Below are positions 39,610 through 64,000 of a stretch of 64,000 nt of DNA, piece after piece. Origin of the DNA: Warburgia ugandensis (Eukaryota; Streptophyta; Magnoliopsida; Canellales; Canellaceae); the NCBI GenBank assembly GCA_035236585.1, contig CP141126.1, positions 69,727,414 to 69,791,413 on the forward strand. Reading direction: 5' to 3'. The position numbers and the translations under genes are program-made. Every line of letters begins with the position of its first letter. Positions within the stretch are counted from its first letter, which is position 1. The notes under the pieces were generated by a model that saw nothing but the letters and a program-made list of their open reading frames with translations, made no database searches and had not been told where the DNA came from.

Positions 39610-40909
39610 TGATGACCTGGGTTTTCATATGCATTTTTAGGTGCAAAACTAATTCTTAATGTGGGATCAATCCCTATTTGAAAACACTTTTATAAAAACA
39701 ATGCAACACAATGGAAAAATCTTTTATTTTAAAATCATTTTGAAAACCTTGAGGGTCATTTACTTCCAAGAGAAAAAAATAATTTTTGAAACTAAAACAA
39801 ACATATATGCATCTCGAATCTAGCTAGTCACAGCTCATAGTCCAACTATAATAATTACATATACATGTCCAAAGGATAAGTCATATACTTACATTTATAC
39901 TTGTCTTTATCTTCATTCACTTGACTATAATGCTAACATTTCTTAATACTTTTTCTAATCTTGCTAGAGCTAATGTGTAAAAATAATATATTTAATTGAG
40001 TATTTAACATACTCAATAGGTGATCTGATACTACTAATTTGAAAATATGGTATGCAACATGCATAATTTCAAGAGGGGTTTTTCAAGTAATAAAATCATG
40101 AAATTCCTTTTCGTGTAAACATGGTATTTATACATAAATCATTCTCTCATTTCAAATGATAGAATTTCCAACAAAATCAATAATTCAATAACACAAAGAT
40201 TACAAAATTCTTAAAATAACAATGATTACTAAATTCTTAAAGTAGTAATCAATCAAACCAAATGATAGAATCTCAACCCTACGGTAGATATCATGAACAT
40301 GGCTATCTTAGTGAACACATCAAGCTGACTGGCCATGAGTACTAATCTAAGACCATCTCAATGCACCATCTAAGGTGTTAACAAAACCAAAATCATAGGG
40401 TCCATTATGCTCATGACCAGACTTATCATAAATCACATGTCTCCAGTATTTAGAGACCAGCCACCATAACCTCCACAGTTGACTATGGAAATGTCTCAAA
40501 AAGGGTGTCGAGAACACCTACAGTGGTAGTCCTGGTACCACAGCAGTCGACAAAGGGACAAGTGCCGCTTTGGGCAATGATACCTACCACCTTCGGTGGT
40601 TAGAGACAGGGAGGCCAACCCTGTACTAACAACCTCTTAGCATAATGCCCACTAGGCTCACTAGCCTAAAAGAAATATATATGTGTATACATATATTCCA
40701 AAACTCAATCATCATAGATCATGCAATCTATGCAACTTGTTCCAAAAAAATGCAAGCAATGCATATATAAAATTGTCCATGGAAGATGTAAGCAATAGCA
40801 TTCAGGATCATGAATCATGAGAACAATCCGCACGCTCATTATAAAAATATCATATCCAAAAGCATACTAAACACAGAATAGATTCAAGAAAATCATTTAG
40901 ATTTTGGAA
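39610..40909 (-). mobile_element. Chromovirus D 3' LTR, end part
   Basis: It starts on the plus strand as TGATGACCTGGGTTTTC, the inner end of a minus-strand LTR of the S1/S2 type. It contains the family module near 40,560-40,680 (GGTTAGAGACAGGGAGGCCA...CTTAGCATAATGCCC), comparable to 11,750-11,850 of S1. The left flank is AACTA inside the integrase of E. The other part of this LTR is at 50,653-51,709, and the two are separated by a 9.7-kb insertion. Confidence 0.6.
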
Positions 40910-43683
40910 TGCAATTTAAAAATCTTAAAACCTCCATTTTCTTATGAAATGATAAAAAGGAGAATATATGTAATACAAATTTCTGTATTTAGGAATCAAG
41001 TTTCCAATTGCCAAGATCTTCAAGATCTGAGATGATCAGATCTTGGAGATATGTTTTAATAATGATATAATATTGAAATAAAGTTATCTAAATGGTTTAT
41101 TTGGACAGATCTAGGAGATATTTAGGGATTTACCCACTATGGAAGGAAAAACCCTAAAAATTTCAAAGGGACCCACTTGATCAATAAGATCAAGTGTGAT
41201 GAGATCCTTGAGATGGGTGGGATGGATGTTGATATGATGAAATCCAAGGAGATCATGGATGGATTATGACAAAAACAAAACAATATGACCTTTGGACCTT
41301 AACAAAGAAAACCCCCTAAATATAATTAAAACCCATAATAAAAAGGAAAAGATCTAAGATCTAATGGTTGGATGATAAGTGAAGGTTTCTAAAAATATTA
41401 ATATAATCATTTTTATTTTCTATTAATTGATAACAACATATTAAATATGATTTATTTTATAAAGCATGCTAGTGTAACTTTTAGACTTTAGCAAGATATG
41501 TGATTATATTGTTATCATAGGGTGCTAGATTGAATTATCTTAGGGGCACTTTAGTATGATTTTATGCCATTGTAACTTAGGACCGTGCTAGAATTTCATA
41601 TAAGATTATACTATAGTATGAGATTATACCTTAGGTCCATGTTAGTTTAAATTGAGTTATTAAGGTATATTAGTTAGAAATCATGCTAGTGTAATTTTAA
41701 GTACCTTGCCTCATTATCATTAAGTGTTCAATTATGTAGTTTTATGCTTTGAATTTATAATTCATTTATGGTTAAATTTTATTAGTAGATCTACTTGTTA
41801 TGAGATAAAGAGCATAAAACACCAAAAATGGGATCTAATGAGAAAGTAGAGTTTCATGACACAAATAAGAATGGAGTACTTTGGACTTAATTAGTAAGGG
41901 CTATAGTTAGTAGGACAATATAAGGATTATCAAGGAGAATAATAAACCCCATGAATGACATTGTAAATATTCATGGACTTAATTAAAATCTATTAGAAAG
42001 AGTACTTAGGGTCAACATGCTTATAGGAACCTTATGAAAGGTTGAGCTATGGTCACTCTAGTGAATGTTGAACATAGGGGTTATCTAATAGAGCCTCGCT
42101 CTTCCCCTACCTTCCGTTGATGTTTGTGAGGTCTAAATGCCTCCTTACATGAGGATTGAAGTAACGACTTTGTGTTCACCCATTCAGCTAGTAAGCCTTA
42201 GCCAATTAGAAATAAGAGGAGCAGTCTAGACAAAGGCTTAAATAAGTTACCTTTAACTAGGAAAACATTAATTGGTTGAATAATAATAGTAAGAGTATAA
42301 AAGGTTAGTAAATTACCTAACCCTAATAAAAATTGTAAGAAAGATAAGGATGATCAAACAAGATCCATTAGATCTTGGATGATCAAGAACAATAAGAATA
42401 AGAATATTATATTGTACTTAGTATGCATGTTTATTAGTATGCTTGTTATAGTTCATTAGATTAGATAATCCAAACCCTTGATCAAAGATGATTCAAGGAA
42501 GAAAACCAAGATCATCCTCCTTAGGGATGATCCAATAACTGAACCTAGATCAAAGAAGAACTAGATGATAAAAGATCTAGGACCTTAATATTTATTAACA
42601 AGTGTATCAATGGTTCTATGAAAGATCAAGATTAAGGAGATGGACACACAAATACTTAGAGATAAAAAAATACTTAGATATGAATGCTCTAAAGATCATT
42701 CTAAATATCAGATCTAGTGATCAATAGGATTGTTCATAATCTATATATTGACAATATGTATGGATGTACAGATTACATACATTAGTCAGGATCATGGAAG
42801 ATTTGGGAAAAGGGATCACTCCTTGAAGGTAGGAGGATTTGATGAATGCATTTACGTGGGATATACATGATTGAACTCATGACCTTATTTTGACAAGAGT
42901 AATGTTAATACTTATATTAAATCCCTTGAAAACCATATGATCCAACCAAACACATATAAGATGGTTAAGGACTAGACTATAAGTGAATAGGGAACTAGAA
43001 AATATTTTAGCCCTAAGTAAACAGACAGATGGTCTGATATATATGAAATCTATTTTACATATAAGCTTGGAGGCTTGTGAGTTTGTTTTAATAGGCATAA
43101 ACCTAGGGGGATGCTATGCTGGAGGAGTTATAAGGGTTTGGCCACTCCCTCCTTGAAATTTGATGATACCTTGCCCTATGAGAGGTTAAAAGTCAGGTGG
43201 GGCAATTATGGGAAGGGCACCACTGTGAAAGTCTTGCCCCCCCATATGGGCAGTGACATAATATTTTTCATCGCGGTATCAGTGGTGAACATGGTAGTTA
43301 TCCAAGTGCACTAGTACGGATCAGACTATAGCATGGTAGCCCTTTTGATTATTTTGCACTATGATGCATATGAGAATAGGCATAGTGAAATGCCTTATGT
43401 TTTAGCATAATGAAATGCTAGGTGATTGTATATTACCAATATTTCCCAAGAAGGAAAATTCCCAATTAAGATTAGCTGAAATAGTAAATTCTCATAATGG
43501 AGAGAATTGATCAGCTTAGTTGGGAATGATATTTGACTACTTTCATAAATTTAACTGGTTTACCCATGTAGAGTATGTATGTATGTAAATATACATAACT
43601 TACAAAGTAAAGAGTATGTTTAGGGATAGTGAGATTATGAAGTATTGGAATTACCTTGTCAATTATTATGCTTCTTGAATCCT
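40910..43683 (+). mobile_element. LTR copy B (long-LTR family), 5' truncated
   Basis: These 2.8 kb match 45,130-47,930 at about 93-97% by eye, same orientation. They contain a stretch resembling the Athila leader (about 41,800-42,260) and the family module near 43,090-43,310 (GGGGATGCTATGCT...GGGGCAATTATGGG), which matches S1 and S2 in reverse. The promoter half of the LTR is absent. The copy stops at 43,683, just before the point where its sister continues into the 454-base array. Confidence 0.7.
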
Positions 43684-44258
43684 TGTAATAACCCCAATTT
43701 TTGTAATTGATTAAGAAAATCAATAAAGTTTGAGTTTCAGATATTTTGGGCTGAAATATTAGGGTTATACTTTTTATAAAGGTATAATCAAATAATAAGA
43801 CAAGTAAAATTTAAATTAAACTAAGAAAACCCTTCAAAATGACTGTAAGCACGACAAATTTTGAATTCGGATGAAAAATCCTTAAGTTTCTTCATTTCTT
43901 GGACAAAAGGGTAAAATAGTAATTTTACCCAAAAATCAAAATCTCCCAAGAATCAAAATATGAGACATCAAAATTTAGAATGTACTGAGAAATATGAATC
44001 CAATGCCACTAAGTACGCTCAAATCCGAGATCATGGGAATAAAACCCAAAATTTTATACATAAATGGCAAAATAGTCTTTTTACACCATGTGGGGCCCAC
44101 AAGGGACCTAAAAATGAATCTTATGAGCAGCCCACATGAAGTCATGGGTCAACAAACACCAGCTAGTCTTGGGGAAGAAAAATGGAGCATGGGAGACTTT
44201 CATGCCATTTAATAATAAAAAATTAAATATTATAATCATGAAAAAAAGACCAAAATGC

Positions 44259-44267
44259 CTATAAATA
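44259..44267 (+). promoter_or_regulatory. TATA-type promoter element of LTR copy C
   Basis: CTATAAATA lies 575 bases from the LTR start, in the usual place at the end of U3. It is a candidate start-site selector for RNA polymerase II. The related LTRs have CTATAAAC (3,210, J) and CCTATAAAAACC on the minus strand (51,232-51,243, LTR of D). Confidence 0.55.
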
Positions 44268-47200
44268 CAATGCCAAAAACCCTCCAAAAATTCTCATAAA
44301 ATCCCCACAAAATTTTCTTCACTCTCCCTGAAAAATTAGACCTAGATCCCTCCCCAAAAACCCAAAATTTTCAAAAGATATCTTTCTTTTTAATTTCTTT
44401 TTCTTTTTAGATTGGAACAAGAGACCTAAAATCAATTAGGTACTCTGTTCTAGATCTAATTTCATTAATTGTACCATCCAAAACTTCCCACCACATCTAT
44501 TCTACAAAACCCCCAAAGCAATTTCAAGATCCAATGGTTCAAACAACGGCAATTTGCAAGAAAGGTGGATCTTAGGCCATATCTTCATCAACAAGGTATT
44601 CTTTTTAAATTGGGCATATAACCAAGGTTTTCTCCAATCAGGTAGGTGGGAATACTTTCTATAGATGTTTAATACTGGTTTATGTAATTTTTAGTTTACT
44701 ATAATTTATTTTGATGATAAAAAAGGTAAAAATAAAGTAATAACAAATTAATTCAGGATTATAGACTACTTAGATGAAAATTCTGACTACAGGAATAGAT
44801 CCGGAAGGGTCCAAAACCCCTAGGGTAGAATTTTCACAATGATCGGAGAAGGTTTGGTTCCTCAATTGAGAAGGGATTGATTGGACGGTCCAAACAGACT
44901 GTCCGATCTCCCGATCGGATGGACGACGTCCCGCGCGCGTCCATGGATGCCCCATGAGGGCGCTTCCACATTTCATCGAAACAGATGACGCGACAAACTG
45001 AACACGTTCCGCCCGACTAATCTGGGCCGTCCGTTCCTTGGGCCCAGATCAAATCCAAGCCCTAGGAAGGACTGTGAACTTATAGATCCAATTTCGGAGT
45101 CATCTGAACTCCAAATTAAGATCGAAAAGAAGCTATGGAAAGCTTGAAACCTCTATTTTCCGATGAAATGATAAAATGGACATAATATTCAGTAAAACTT
45201 TCTGTATTAAAGAAACAAGTTTCCAATTACCTAGATCTTCAAGATTTGAGATGATCAGATCTTGAAAATATGTTTTACTAATGATATACAATTGAAATAA
45301 AGTGAGATCTACGGCTTATTTGGACATATATGAGATATATTAAGGGATCTACCCATTATGGTAGAAAAACCCTAAAAATACAAAGGGACCCACTTGATCA
45401 ATGAGATCAAGTGTGATCAGATCCTTGGGATGGATAAAATGAATGTTCATATAATGGAATCCAAGAAATCATGGATGGATTATGACAAAAATGGATCAAT
45501 ATGATATTTGGACCTTAATAAAATAAATCCCCTAAATATAACTAATACCATTAATCAAAGAAAAAGATCTAAGATCAAATGGTTGGATCATAAGTAAAGG
45601 TTTCTAAAATTGTTAATGTAATTAGTTTCATTTTATATAATAACATTTTAAATATGATTATGTTATAAAGCATGCTAGTATAACATTTAGACTTTAGCAT
45701 GATATGTGATTTCATTGTTATCATAAGGTGCTAGATTTAATTATCTTAGGGGCACTTTAGTATGATTTCATACCATTCTAACTTAGGACCATGCTAGAAT
45801 TTCATATAAGTTTATACTATAGTAGGAGATTATACCTTAAGTCCATGTTAGTTTAAATTGAGTTATTAAGGTATATTAGTTGGAAATCATGTTAGAGTAA
45901 TTGTAAGTACCTTGTCTCATTATCATTAAGTGTTAAATTATGTAGTTTTATGCTTTGAATTTATAATTCATTTATGGTTAAATGTTATTAGTAGATCTAC
46001 TTGTTATGAGATAAAGAGCATAAAGCATCAAAAAATGTATTCTAATGAGAAAGTATAGTTTCATGACACAAATAAGAATGGAGTACTTTGGACTTAATTA
46101 GTAAGGGCTATAGTTAGTAGGACAATATAAGGATTATCAAATCCTTGGCCCAAACTAGGAGAAGAATAATAAACCCCATGAATGACATTATAAATATTCA
46201 TGGACTTAATTAAAATCTATTAGAAAGAGTACTTAGGGTCAACATGCTTATAGGAACCTTATGAAAGGTTGAGCTATGGTCACTCTAGTGAATGTTGAAC
46301 ATAGGGGTTATCTAATAGAGCCTCGCTCTTCCCCTACCTACCATTGATGTTTGTGAGGTCTAAATGCCTCCTTACATGAGGATTGAAGTAACCACTTTGT
46401 GTTCACCCATTCAGCTAGTAAGCCTTAGCCAATTGGAAATAAGAGGAGCAGTCTAGACAAAGGCTTAAATAAGTTACCTTTAACTAGAAAAACATTAATT
46501 GGTTGAATAATAATAGTAAGAGCATAAAAGGTTAGTAAATTACCTAACCCTAATAAAAATTGTAAGAAAGATAAGGATGATCAAACAAGATCCATTAGAT
46601 CTTGGATGATCAAGAACAATAAGAATAAGAATATTATATTGTACTTAGTATGCATGTTTATTAGTATGCTTGTTATAGTTCATTAGATTAGATAATCCAA
46701 ACCCTTGATCAAAGATGATTCAAAGAAGAAAACCAAGATCATCCTCCATAGGGATGATCCAATAACTGAACTTAGATCAAAGAAGAACTAGATGATAGAA
46801 GATCTAGGACCTTGATCTTTATCATCATGTGTAGATTGTCAATCGATGGATCTATGAAAGATCAAGATCGAGGAGATGGACATACAAAGACTTAGAGATA
46901 GAAAAATACTTAGATATGAATAATCTAAAGATCATTCTAAACATCAGATCTAGTGATCAATAAGATGGTTCATAATTTATATATTGACAATATGTATGGA
47001 TGTACAGATCATATACATCAGTCAGGATCATGGAAGATTTGGGGAAAAGAGATCAATCCATAAAGTTAGGGGGATTTGATGAATGCATTTACATGAGATA
47101 TACATGATTGTACTCATGATTTTATGTTGACAAGAGTAATGTTAATACTTGTATTAAATCTCTTGAAAACCTTATGATCCAACCAAACACATATAAGATG

Positions 47201-47930
47201 GTTAAGGACTAAACTATAAGTGCATAGGGAACTAGAAAATATTTCAGCCCTAAGTAAATTGACATATGGTCTGATATATATGAAATCTATTTTACATACA
47301 AGCTTGGAGGCTTGTGAGTTTGTTTTAATGGGCATAAGCCTAGGGGAATGCTATTGCTAGAGGAGTTATGAGGGTTTGGCCACTCGCTCCTTGAAATTTG
47401 ATGATGTGATGATACCTTGCCCTAAGAGAGGCTAAATGTCGGGTGGTGGCAATTATGGGAAGGCCACTACTATGAAAGTCTTGCCCCCCCATATGGGTAG
47501 TGACATAATATTTCCACCATGGTATTAGTGGCGAACAAGGCAGTTATCCGAGCGCGCTAGTACGAATCAGACTGTAGCATAACAACCTTTCTAATTATTT
47601 TGCACTATGATGCATATGGGAATAGGCATAGTGAAATGCCTTATGTTGTAGCATAATGAAATGCTAGGTAATTATATATTACCAATATTTCCCAAGAAGG
47701 GAAATTTCTAATATAAGATTAGTTGAAATACTAAATTCTCAAAATGAAGAGAATTGATCAGCTTAGTTGGGAATGATATTTGACTATTTTCATAAATTTA
47801 ACTGGTTCACCCATGAAGGGTATGTATGTATATAGATATACATAACTTACAAAGTAAAGAGTATGTTTAAGGATAATAAGATTATGAAGTATTGGAATTA
47901 CCTTGCCAATTATTATGCTTCTTGAATCCC

Positions 47931-50652
47931 CTACCAAGCATTGCTTGCTGAGATATTGTAAATGTTGCAATATCTTAAATATAGGGAAGGAGAGTTAGGA
48001 GTTGAAGACGATAGAAGACTTGAAGAGAATAATCTTCAAGGTATACCCTTGAAGACATGTATTTTTCTTTGTTGAGAGTTTTATTGTATGGTGAGCTTGA
48101 GTTTTGGATTATGTAATTTGGACAAGTATTGTAATAGATTTGGTTGTACTGTGAACCACTAGATGGATCCTAGAATTTAATAAAAGTATATTCCTTCAAT
48201 GGAATTTTATTTTTGTTCACAAATTGTACTTATGTTATGTATGAAGTGGTGACTTGGGTTTTCAAAACAAGTTCTAAAGAAAAGAATTTCCACTGCTTTG
48301 TTTTGCAAAAAAAATTTACACTCATAAGCGCCCTACCTTTCAAAATACTTTACAAATCATGTTACAAAAAATCGGGTCATCACACTACCAAGCATTGCTT
48401 GCTGAGATATTGTAATTGTTGCAATATCTCAGATACATGGAAGGAGAGTTAGGAGTTGAAGATAATAGAAGACTTGAAGAGAATAATCTTCATGGTATAC
48501 CCTTGAAGACATGTATTTTTCTTTGTTGAGAGTTTTATTGTATGGTGAGCTTGAGTTTTGGATTATGTAATTTGGACAAGTATTGTAATAGATTTGGTTG
48601 TACTGTGAACCACTAGATGGATCGTAGAATTTAATAAAAGTATATTCCTTCAATGGAATTTTATTTTTGTACACAAATTGTACTTATGTTATGTATGAAG
48701 TGGTGACTTGGGTTTTCAAAACAAGTTCTAAAGAAAAGAATTTCCACTGCTTTGTTTTGCGAAAAAAATTTACACTCATAAGGGCCCTACCTTTCAAAAT
48801 ACTTTACAAATCATGTTACAAAAAATCGGGTCATCACACTACCAAGCATTGCTTGCTGAGATATTGTAATTGTTGCAATATCTCAGATACATGGAAGGAG
48901 AGTTAGGAGTTGAAGATAATAGAAGACTTGAAGAGAATAATCTTCATGGTATACCCTTGAAGACATGTATTTTTCTTTGTTGAGAGTTTTATTGTATGGT
49001 GAGCTTGAGTTTTGGATTATGTAATTTGGACAAGTATTGTAATAGATTTGGTTGTACTGTGAACCACTAGATGGATCCTAGAATTTAATAAAAGTATATT
49101 CCTTCAATGGAATTTTATTTTTGTACACAAATTGTACTTATGTTATGTATGAAGTGGTGACTTGGGTTTTCAAAACAAGTTCTAAAGAAAAGAATTTCCA
49201 CTGCTTTGTTTTGCGAAAAAAATTTACACTCATAAGGGCCCTACCTTTCAAAATACTTTACAAATCATGTTACAAAAAATCGGGTCATCACACTACCAAG
49301 CATTGCTTGCTGAGATATTGTAATTGTTGCAATATCTCAGATACATGGAAGGAGAGTTAGGAGCTAAAGATAATAGAAGACTTGAAGAGAATAATCTTCA
49401 TGGTATACCCTTGAAGACATGTATTTTTCTTTGTTGAGAGTTTTATTGTATGGTGAGCTTGAGTTTTGGATTATGTAATTTGGACAAGTATTGTAATAGA
49501 TTTGGTTGTACTGTGAACCACTAGATGGATCCTAGAATTTAATAAAAGTATATTCCTTCAATGGAATTTTATTTTTGTACACAAATTGTACTTATGTTAT
49601 GTATGAAGTGGTGACTTGGGTTTTCAAAACAAGTTCTAAAGAAAAGAATTTCCACTGCTTTGTTTTGCGAAAAAAATTTACACTCATAAGGGCCCTACCT
49701 TTCAAAATACTTTACAAATCATGTTACAAAAAATCGGGTCATCACACTACCAAGCATTGCTTGCTGAGATATTGTAATTGTTGCAATATCTCAGATACAT
49801 GGAAGGAGAGTTAGGAGCTGAAGATAATAGAAGACTTGAAGAGAATAATCTTCATGGTATACCCTTGAAGACATGTATTTTTCTTTGTTGAGAGTTTTAT
49901 TGTATGGTGAGCTTGAGTTTTGGATTATGTAATTTGGACAAGTATTGTAATAGATTTGGTTGTACTGTGAACCACTAGATGGATCGTAGAATTTAATAAA
50001 AGTATATTCCTTCAATGGAATTTTATTTTTGTACACAAATTGTATTTATGTTATGTATGAAGTGGTGACTTGGGTTTTCAAAACAAGTTCTAAAGAAAAG
50101 AATTTCCACTGCTTTGTTTTGCGAAAAAAATTTACACTCATAAGGGCCCTACCTTTCAAAATACTTTACAAATCATGTTACAAAAAATCGGGTCATCACA
50201 CTACCAAGCATTGCTTGCTGAGATATTGTAATTGTTGCAATATCTCAGATACATGGAAGGAGAGTTAGGAGCTGAAGATAATAGAAGACTTGAAGAGAAT
50301 AATCTTCATGGTATACCCTTGAAGACATGTATTTTTCTTTGTTGAGAGTTTTATTGTATGGTGAGCTTGAGTTTTGGATTATGTAATTTGGACAAGTATT
50401 GTAATAGATTTGGCTATACTATGAACCAATGGATGGATTCTGGAATTTAATAAAAGTATATTCCTTTAATGGAATTTTATCTTGTACAAAATTTCCACTT
50501 ATGTTATGTATGAAGTGATGACTTAGGTTTTAAAAAAAGTTCTAAAGAAAAGAATTTTCGCTGCTTTGTTTTGTGAAATTTCTTTACACTCATAAGGGCC
50601 CTGCCTTTCAAAATACATTACAAAACGTGTTACAAAAACCCGGGTCATCACA
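47931..50652 (+). repeat. Tandem array, six units of 454 bases, made from an LTR end
   Basis: Units start with CTACCAAGCATTGCTTGCTG at 47,931, 48,385, 48,839, 49,293, 49,747 and 50,201. Five are 454 bases and the last is about 452. Each unit holds, in order, an inverted repeat (CTGAGATATTG...CAATATCTCAG), a TTTAATAAAAG signal, and the LTR tip GGGTCATCACA. Inner units are nearly identical. The first unit differs mainly in its first 100 or so bases and the last mainly after about 50,410. The related LTRs S1, S2 and F2 have this segment once. The array is therefore a local amplification of the LTR's terminal segment. Confidence 0.95.
48402..48432. repeat. Perfect 11-base inverted repeat (one per array unit)
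   Basis: CTGAGATATTG (48,402-48,412), a 9-base loop, then CAATATCTCAG (48,422-48,432). It recurs at 454-base steps in the later units and in imperfect form in unit one. The same structure stands at 19,170-19,208 in S2 (15-base arms), 10,925-10,963 in S1, and 59,986-60,017 in F2. Confidence 0.85.
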
Positions 50653-51709
50653 CTTTTTCAATCATAAATTAGACTTGTTTAACCCTTAGAATTAGAGATT
50701 TTGTGTTTTAGATCTGTTTAAGGGTCGAGGTTGAAATTCTGAATCTAGAACACTAAAAAATGAGGTCATTGGTGGTACTGGTTGTCGCTAGAGAAGGTGA
50801 CCAGTGTGACAATTGCCAATGATAATTTTCTTCTTAGATCGATTCCTAGTGATAAAGGTTTGTAGATCAGGCTCTTACCTTCATTCCTGTCATGTTTGGT
50901 GTGATCCACATTCATTTGATGTCAAAAAATGTGCATTTCCCTGTCAAACTGCTGTCGAAAATCCCAGAGTGGCCAGATTTAGAATCATTGTTAGATCACT
51001 ATTAAAATCTACTTTGATTGGAACATAATTAGAGTTGTTTTGATCCTCTTTACACAAAGAATTCAATGGTGGAGTTTGATCTTTGATCCACCATTGTTTT
51101 GGTGACCATTGTTGAGATCTGCACATTGGCTGTGTTCACTACTGTCGAAAAAAATGGAGAATAGGTGGCTGGGGAAAGAGGAGAGGAAGAGGGAGAGGGA
51201 AATCTATGATAGGGAAAAGAGGGGAAGATGGGTTTTTATAGGTGATGAAGGCGGTGCTGTTCGTGGAGATACCCTCGTCTGTTGTTGTTTTTGCCAACGC
51301 CGTTGCTAACTTTATGCTGGCGCCATAGAAGAAGACCAAAGTTTGTCGGCACCTAACGACCCTTCTAATGCAAATGCAGGTGGTGATGCAGAGATAGAAG
51401 GGGTGTAGTTATCAAAATGGCCGTTTGCATTTTCATATTTTTTTATTTTGAAATATATTTTCATATTATTTAGGAAATTACCAAAATACCCACCAACTTC
51501 AAGTGCCATAACTTTTTCATCTGAACTATCTTTTCAGTATTATTTATGTCATTGGATTCCATTTATCTAGTAGAATCTGATTATGAGAGTATTTTAATCA
51601 AATTTGATCTCTATAAAATCTCACTTCTAAGACTCAAAATTTATAAAACTTTTATTTTCCTCTTCCATCCACTTTTCCAAAATAGGAGTTAAAAATTTGG
51701 ATAGTTACA
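50653..51709 (-). mobile_element. Chromovirus D 3' LTR, start part
   Basis: On the minus strand the LTR starts at 51,709 with TGTAACTATCC, directly after the polypurine tract and chromodomain end of D. A TATA-type CCTATAAAAACC lies at 51,232-51,243. The text breaks off at 50,653, where copy C ends, and resumes at 40,909. No gene is inside; small frames at 50,813-51,339 overlap on both strands and lack family features. Confidence 0.68.
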
Positions 51710-63760: not shown

Positions 63761-63854
63761 ATAGGTCATGTTCCTCACAACACAAGGATCACAATAGTGG
63801 TCTCAGATGGGCAAAATCTTTCCTATATTTGGTGGAAGAAAGAATCATGGTTTA

Positions 63855-64000
63855 TGTGACGACCTAGGTTTTTGTAACACATTTTGTAATATATTTTGAA
63901 AGGCAAGGTCCTTAATAGTAAAAAAAATTTGCAAAACAAAGTAGTTGAAATTCTTTTCTTTAGAACTTGTTTTGTAAAGCCTAAATCACCACTTCATACA
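63855..64000 (-). mobile_element. LTR H, inner tip, running off the window
   Basis: It begins TGTGACGACCTAGGTTTTTG and continues as the reverse complement of the end of the 454-base unit (for example the TTCTTTTCTTTAGAACTTGT block near 63,953). It is therefore a minus-strand LTR of the same subfamily as copy C, inserted in F2. The left flank is GTTTA (63,850-63,854). Confidence 0.72.

Follow-up and report, generated by a model that had tools for sequence, protein, structure and literature searches.

How the end of a mobile element becomes tandem DNA is the question raised by a small array in the genome of Warburgia ugandensis. The window analysed here is a stretch of 64,000 nucleotides (C1:69727414-69791413) from a genome of 1.12 Gb in 14 contigs. 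Tandem Repeats Finder, run on the window, detected a single array at 47931-50654 with a period of 454, 6.0 copies and 97% matches. The units were cut at CTACC, which places the array at 47931-50652. It is composed of six units on the forward strand, arranged head to tail and numbered U1 (47931..48384), U2 (48385..48838), U3 (48839..49292), U4 (49293..49746), U5 (49747..50200) and U6 (50201..50652). A sequence-only reading of this DNA had proposed six units of 454 bases, and this was borne out, as U1 to U5 have 454 bases each and U6 has 452. All six units end with GGGTCATCACA, and each of the five unit-unit junctions consists of GGGTCATCACA followed directly by CTACC. The array has no frame of at least 130 amino acids, and Rfam gave no match for the window at gathering score; on these grounds a functional role for the array was dropped.

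The unit comes from a family of long LTRs. Genome search with the unit gave 5396 first-look candidates, of which 40 were scored, and six of the 45 matches listed were the array itself. The 39 other listed copies, chosen for likeness to U2, served as the family comparison set, with stretches of 10 kb for 19 loci and 1.2 kb for 20. In all 39 copies examined, the unit forms the terminal segment of an LTR whose body runs continuously into it. The tip is also shared (GGGTC[A/G]TCACA or base variants). GAATCCC is situated directly before the unit in 36 of the 39 copies. A second unit of at least 300 bases was absent from these stretches of 10 kb and 1.2 kb, and L038 and L040 contain a partial additional diverged copy (83-85%). 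The LTR start was obtained in 18 of the 19 loci with 10 kb, and the LTR length was 4457-4949 bases (4.4-4.9 kb) in 15 of the 18 measured copies. In L014, L015 and L021 the LTR was shorter or its start poor, and L017 gave none.

Directly 3' of the LTR, L013, L015 and L049 carry TGGTATCAGAG, and near forms of it are present in L037 and L050. We take this motif to be the primer-binding site for initiator methionine tRNA. L025 and L027 share an internal stretch of ~3.7 kb which is 94.6-96.2% alike. In L027 this stretch has no frame of 150 amino acids, and its three antisense frames of 74-92 amino acids have no Pfam match. In L025 it has one antisense frame of 151 amino acids and one sense frame of 70. 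LARD-like elements are non-autonomous, with long LTRs, a non-coding internal region and a primer-binding site, and are mobilised by an autonomous partner. The source element of the unit is likely to be a non-autonomous element of this LARD-like kind. Two other arrangements were observed in the family. The LTR ends of L049 and L050 (G000:C3:34062600 and 34053300) lie 9.3 kb apart, each followed by the primer-binding site or a near form, and the pair looks like a tandem element of the order LTR-internal-LTR-internal. L014 has two LTR starts (3702 and ~4235) about 533 bases apart within one shortened LTR that has the perfect target-site duplication ATGAT; its double start is an internal partial duplication.

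Alignment of the six units revealed 46 variable columns, which are divided into 11 where U1 alone differs, 31 where U6 alone differs and four others (72, 74, 240 and 299). All 31 U6-only columns are at column 214 or beyond, that is from 50414; the sequence-only reading had described the last unit as odd from about 50,410 on. The U1-only columns are mostly on the left (32, 46, 48, 52, 54, 79, 80 and 109, eight of 11), with 287, 377 and 399 on the right. Between these two sets, columns 110-213 (104 bases) are alike in all six units. The first and last units therefore differ in a complementary manner, and the left/right split of U1-only against U6-only columns is significant (Fisher p = 1.4e-6). 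The idea that the first unit is odd at its beginning held only in combination with U6; taken alone, the U1-only columns are not significantly shifted (8/213 left vs 3/241 right, p = 0.12), and the U1 states at 46, 48 and 52 appear to have arisen later within U1, because the other state is found in 36-38 of the 39 copies.

On the basis of these columns U1 was designated L1-R1 and U6 L2-R2. U2 to U5 have a left half of the U6 type and a right half of the U1 type, so they are L2-R1 hybrids, in line with the last-type beginning and first-type end ascribed to the inner units beforehand. Rare states follow the same division. T at column 109 is common to U2-U6 and present in only one of the 39 other family copies. 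An inserted T at column 280 is common to U1-U5 and found in none of the 39, and A at column 441, also common to U1-U5, is found in none of them by direct comparison and in one by BLAST projection. The left part of the inner units thus has rare states in common with U6, and their right part with U1. They form a homogenised interior of an LTR-derived tandem repeat, with pairwise differences of 1-3 bases (0.2-0.7%, mean 0.51%) among U2-U5. U1 differs from them at 11-14 positions, U6 at 32-33, and U1 and U6 differ from each other by 9.5%. G at column 240 occurs only in U2 and U5, and together with column 72 all four combinations are present, so the hybrids recombined among themselves or mutated twice.

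Two LTRs of related type precede the array on the forward strand. Copy B (40920..43683) is what is left of the left part of an older LTR; it breaks off on the 3' side where the last ~454-base segment should begin, and its 5' side is also missing. The stretch left of it (39610-40919) shows 75-79% identity to parts of L009, L011 and L018 and marks the lost 5' side of B. Copy C (43684..47930) is an LTR body which runs from its TGTAATAACCCC start up to the array, and U1 is its own terminal segment. B and C are 90% identical in alignment. The last base of B is 43683 and the TG start of C is at 43684, and this point is the unit boundary, so the host LTR is interrupted exactly where its terminal segment should start, as had been stated before. 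At this entry, net zero bases are duplicated and zero are lost.

C is without a 5-base target-site duplication, as its left flank is ATCCT, while CTACC follows to the right of U1 and CTTTT to the right of U6. Among 19 sibling loci, 12 show the duplication at full length or at four of five bases. It is complete in L009, L010, L014, L016, L018, L020 and L022 by script and in L023 by eye, and reaches 4/5 in L011, L012, L024 and L029 by script. Of the seven remaining loci, L013 and L015 continue into the primer-binding site, the start is not clean in L017 and L021, and a duplication is absent from L019, L028 and L030. The missing duplication is the main weakness of an origin by nesting of C in B. 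It means that the entry was irregular, or that one duplicate had gone before amplification.

If C lies inside B at 43683/43684, the last segment of B must lie past C, and U6 is probably this stranded segment. The sister LTR, whose end is on the reverse strand at 63837..64000 and which continues into L053, was used as outgroup at sites fixed in the family copies. Outside the conversion tract described below, B is sister-like at 17/91 sites and C at 2/92 (Fisher 2e-4). Among the controls for this region (n=38), L011 was highest with 21/111, in a row probably contaminated by a second, diverged copy at its locus, and the next had 6/99. The right half of U6 is sister-like at 8/19 sites, a larger share than in B; U1 and U3 have 0/19 each, and each of the 39 family controls has at most 1/20.

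A genome search with the right half of U6 alone (5581 candidates, 40 scored) gave 39 other places among the matches listed, at 91-94%, and none of them was among the places found with the unit. Judged by these matches, the right half of U6 is a distinct subfamily with relatives of its own. The reading that U6 is simply an aged member of the family was rejected on account of this separate set of relatives. The best ten of the 39 listed, selected by likeness to the right half of U6, are here called R2 relatives. In the 300 bases before the unit, nine of the ten resemble B more than C, with one tie. Of the family copies, 34 of 37 scored are closer to C, and two of the 39 gave no usable alignment. 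The difference between both groups is significant (Fisher 2e-7, ties excluded). Median identity to the tail of B is 90.3% for the ten R2 relatives and 91.0% for family copies, and to the tail of C 88.0% and 92.7%, respectively. The R2 relatives are therefore no nearer to B in absolute terms, and the signal is the paired contrast between B and C. Three of the ten, at 95.0-96.3%, are nevertheless nearer to the tail of B than the nearest family copy, which by another method differs from it by 5.9%. The last 300 bases of B differ from the family copies by a median of 8.1% and those of C by 7.0%; family copies differ among themselves by 6.0%. The earlier suggestion that C landed at the edge of B's terminal segment gains support from this siding of the relatives with B.

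Whether U6 comes from B as a whole depends on its left half. Every state of the L2 left half also occurs among the 39 family copies, while the right half of U6 has 15 that do not, as would be expected of a chimeric U6. However, the left halves of the ten R2 relatives are also close to both types (median 95.5% to L1 and 95.1% to L2, with L055 at only 85%), so that a young-looking left half need not make U6 chimeric. A stretch of ~20 bases present in three sister LTRs is missing in U6 and, judged by alignment length, in nine of the ten R2 relatives. Because the relatives agree with U6 in both respects, a whole U6 derived from B appears acceptable.

B and C, which are two LTRs 4.2 kb apart, also share a tract of ~650 bases that bears the marks of gene conversion. 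It lies at 46065..46717 in C and at 41858..42490 in B, the latter approximate and taken from alignment offsets, on the forward strand in both. Of the 180 polymorphic sites at 46065-46717, 173 have the same state in B and C; the tract scores 117, with a permutation p of 2e-4, which is the floor of 5000 shuffles. The best score among 16 control copies tested against C was 59; p was <0.05 in three of them (L015, L021 and L024), with far lower scores. Inside the tract C has sister-like states at 5/25 sites, the same as in B, vs 2/92 outside (p = 0.005). Since the sister-like states of C are concentrated inside the tract, B was most likely the donor and C the recipient. The possibility that B and C are the paired LTRs of a single element was considered and rejected, as outside the tract their distance is about equal to that from other copies.

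From these observations we consider the following course probable. The young LTR C would have inserted into the older LTR B of a related subfamily, exactly 454 bases before the 3' end of B. The last 454 bases of C (U1) would thereby have come to lie head to tail with the stranded last segment of B (U6). Misalignment of this dimer by one unit and one unequal crossover within columns 110-213 (48494-48597 in U2) would then give U1, a hybrid and U6, the middle unit of the trimer having its left part from B and its right part from C. More unequal exchanges would have raised the hybrid to four copies, and by this reasoning at least three unequal exchanges are needed for six units. In addition, B and C would have exchanged the ~650-base tract by gene conversion from B to C. 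The sequence itself shows that the unit comes from an LTR end, that B and C meet exactly at the unit boundary, that the units are a mosaic, that the right half of U6 is of another subfamily and that B and C share a conversion tract. We infer the identity of U6 with the end of B, the sequence of events, the dates, and crossover, rather than conversion or a circle, as the founding exchange. At substitution rates of 1.3e-8 and 7e-9 per site and year, the inner-unit divergence of 0.51% would correspond to 0.20 My and 0.37 My, which puts the amplification at roughly 0.2-0.4 My.

An origin from C alone is the alternative that survives best, and we regard it as unlikely. It supposes a break at the end of C and end joining with a 2-base microhomology, later conversion of the right half of U6 from another copy, and a truncation of B at that place by chance. 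Such a duplication accounts for the missing target-site duplication and for the bare junction of CACA with CTACC; the CT of CTACC matches the CT of the right flank CTTTT, as is visible in the sequence, and the left half of U6 appears no older than the family. Yet it would have to be a coincidence that B ends on the unit boundary, for which we estimate a chance of a few in 4,700 positions, and the relatives of the U6 right half would have to side with B by chance as well.

A 454-base extrachromosomal circle or multimer of L2-R1 type, recombined into a single L1-R2 LTR end, would produce L1R1-(L2R1)n-L2R2 in one step. This single event yields the same mosaic, but the host end must be L1-R2 within one LTR, and C has a body of the family type while R2 belongs to the other subfamily, whose relatives side with B. 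It also leaves the stop of B at the unit boundary unexplained, and we hold it to be very unlikely. Template switching in reverse transcription, by which the array was made in cDNA and inserted together with C, would explain why the end of the unit coincides with the LTR tip. This origin is disfavoured and seems highly improbable: the flanks of C plus array are unmatched (ATCCT vs CTTTT), the stretches of the 39 other copies hold no second unit, the junction search given below found no other array, and the right half of U6 is of another subfamily. The array is seen in the assembly alone, but six units that are all different, a window without N and a length of only 2.7 kb make an assembly artefact extremely unlikely.

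The nesting of C in B with subsequent unequal exchange, which we prefer, leaves the question whether the array has spread. The whole assembly was searched with the 25-base unit-unit junction at up to 3 mismatches, a search that misses more diverged junctions or arrays in another phase. It gave six matches, five in the array and one at C1:56129785, and no second array of the unit was found in the assembly at this setting. With 2.7 kb at one locus, and neither long arrays nor several loci, the array is young and local and not yet a satellite. The early satellite envisaged in the sequence-only reading is an outlook only.

The sixth match belongs to L064 (G000:C1:56129250-56130350), where a different LTR with the same tip abuts a single diverged terminal segment of sister type at the entry base of C (junction 546/547). 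The neighbour is presumably an LTR on account of its CCCGGGTCATCACA tip. The diverged unit is 76-77% like U1, U2 and U6. As a second array this locus was rejected, as it has one unit in 1.1 kb beside a different LTR whose upstream stretch is only 60% like U6 over 284 columns. With thousands of copies in the genome, a single coincidence of this kind is roughly what we would expect to meet. We find it unlikely that the base before CTACC is a recurrent entry point, with preferred, duplication-poor landing by which the family repeatedly makes tandem seeds of its own end; if true, the array at 47931-50652 would be one seed that caught. At another locus, L052 (G000:C8:24116200-24118400, 86-1107), the terminal segment of a sister LTR lies ~72 bases beyond the end of a family LTR and in the same direction. 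This is an unamplified nested pair.

To our knowledge, the beginnings of satellites are rarely seen, the founding steps being erased by homogenisation. For Sobo and other LTR-derived satellites of Solanum, we likewise know of no founding event that is still visible.

LTR-derived satellites are themselves a known kind (PMC9659126, PMC12628747). The first of these gives the LTR as source region of Sobo and other Solanum satellites, as here, but those are full satellites, unlike the present array. A close likeness is to CRM1TR and CRM4TR of maize, for which a nested-insertion origin was suggested (Sharma et al. 2013, PMC3648361). These are also tandem repeats that a single retrotransposon family formed from the end region of its LTR, but their unit comprises LTR plus untranslated region, and their loci are of greater size and situated in or close to centromeres. 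The array here consists of six copies of pure LTR end and is still flanked by its two candidate parents. Nested CR1 elements in maize centromere 10 are similar in that related nested elements recombined and mimic a local duplication, a difference that only the subtype alleles reveal (PMC4806543). Chimeric elements with mismatched target-site duplications are described there too (PMC4806543). In contrast to our locus, that case is a single 162-base coding duplication with no amplified LTR-end array (PMC4806543). For the multi-LTR arrays of the TRIM elements Cassandra and Wukong, the authors likewise proposed that unequal exchange drove the tandem growth, though these arrays consist of whole LTRs and internal domains and not of the LTR end (PMC7215508, PMC4528315). 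A literature search that reached few subscription journals gave no other pure LTR-end array that is still bordered by its two founder ends.

The array shows neither a new mechanism nor a function. Its value is that the two candidate founder ends can still be told from each other, from the hybrid and from the neighbouring conversion tract, so that the opening stages of the passage from mobile element to tandem DNA remain legible. For the same reason, the route of nested insertion and unequal exchange, proposed for the maize repeats, becomes testable at one small locus.
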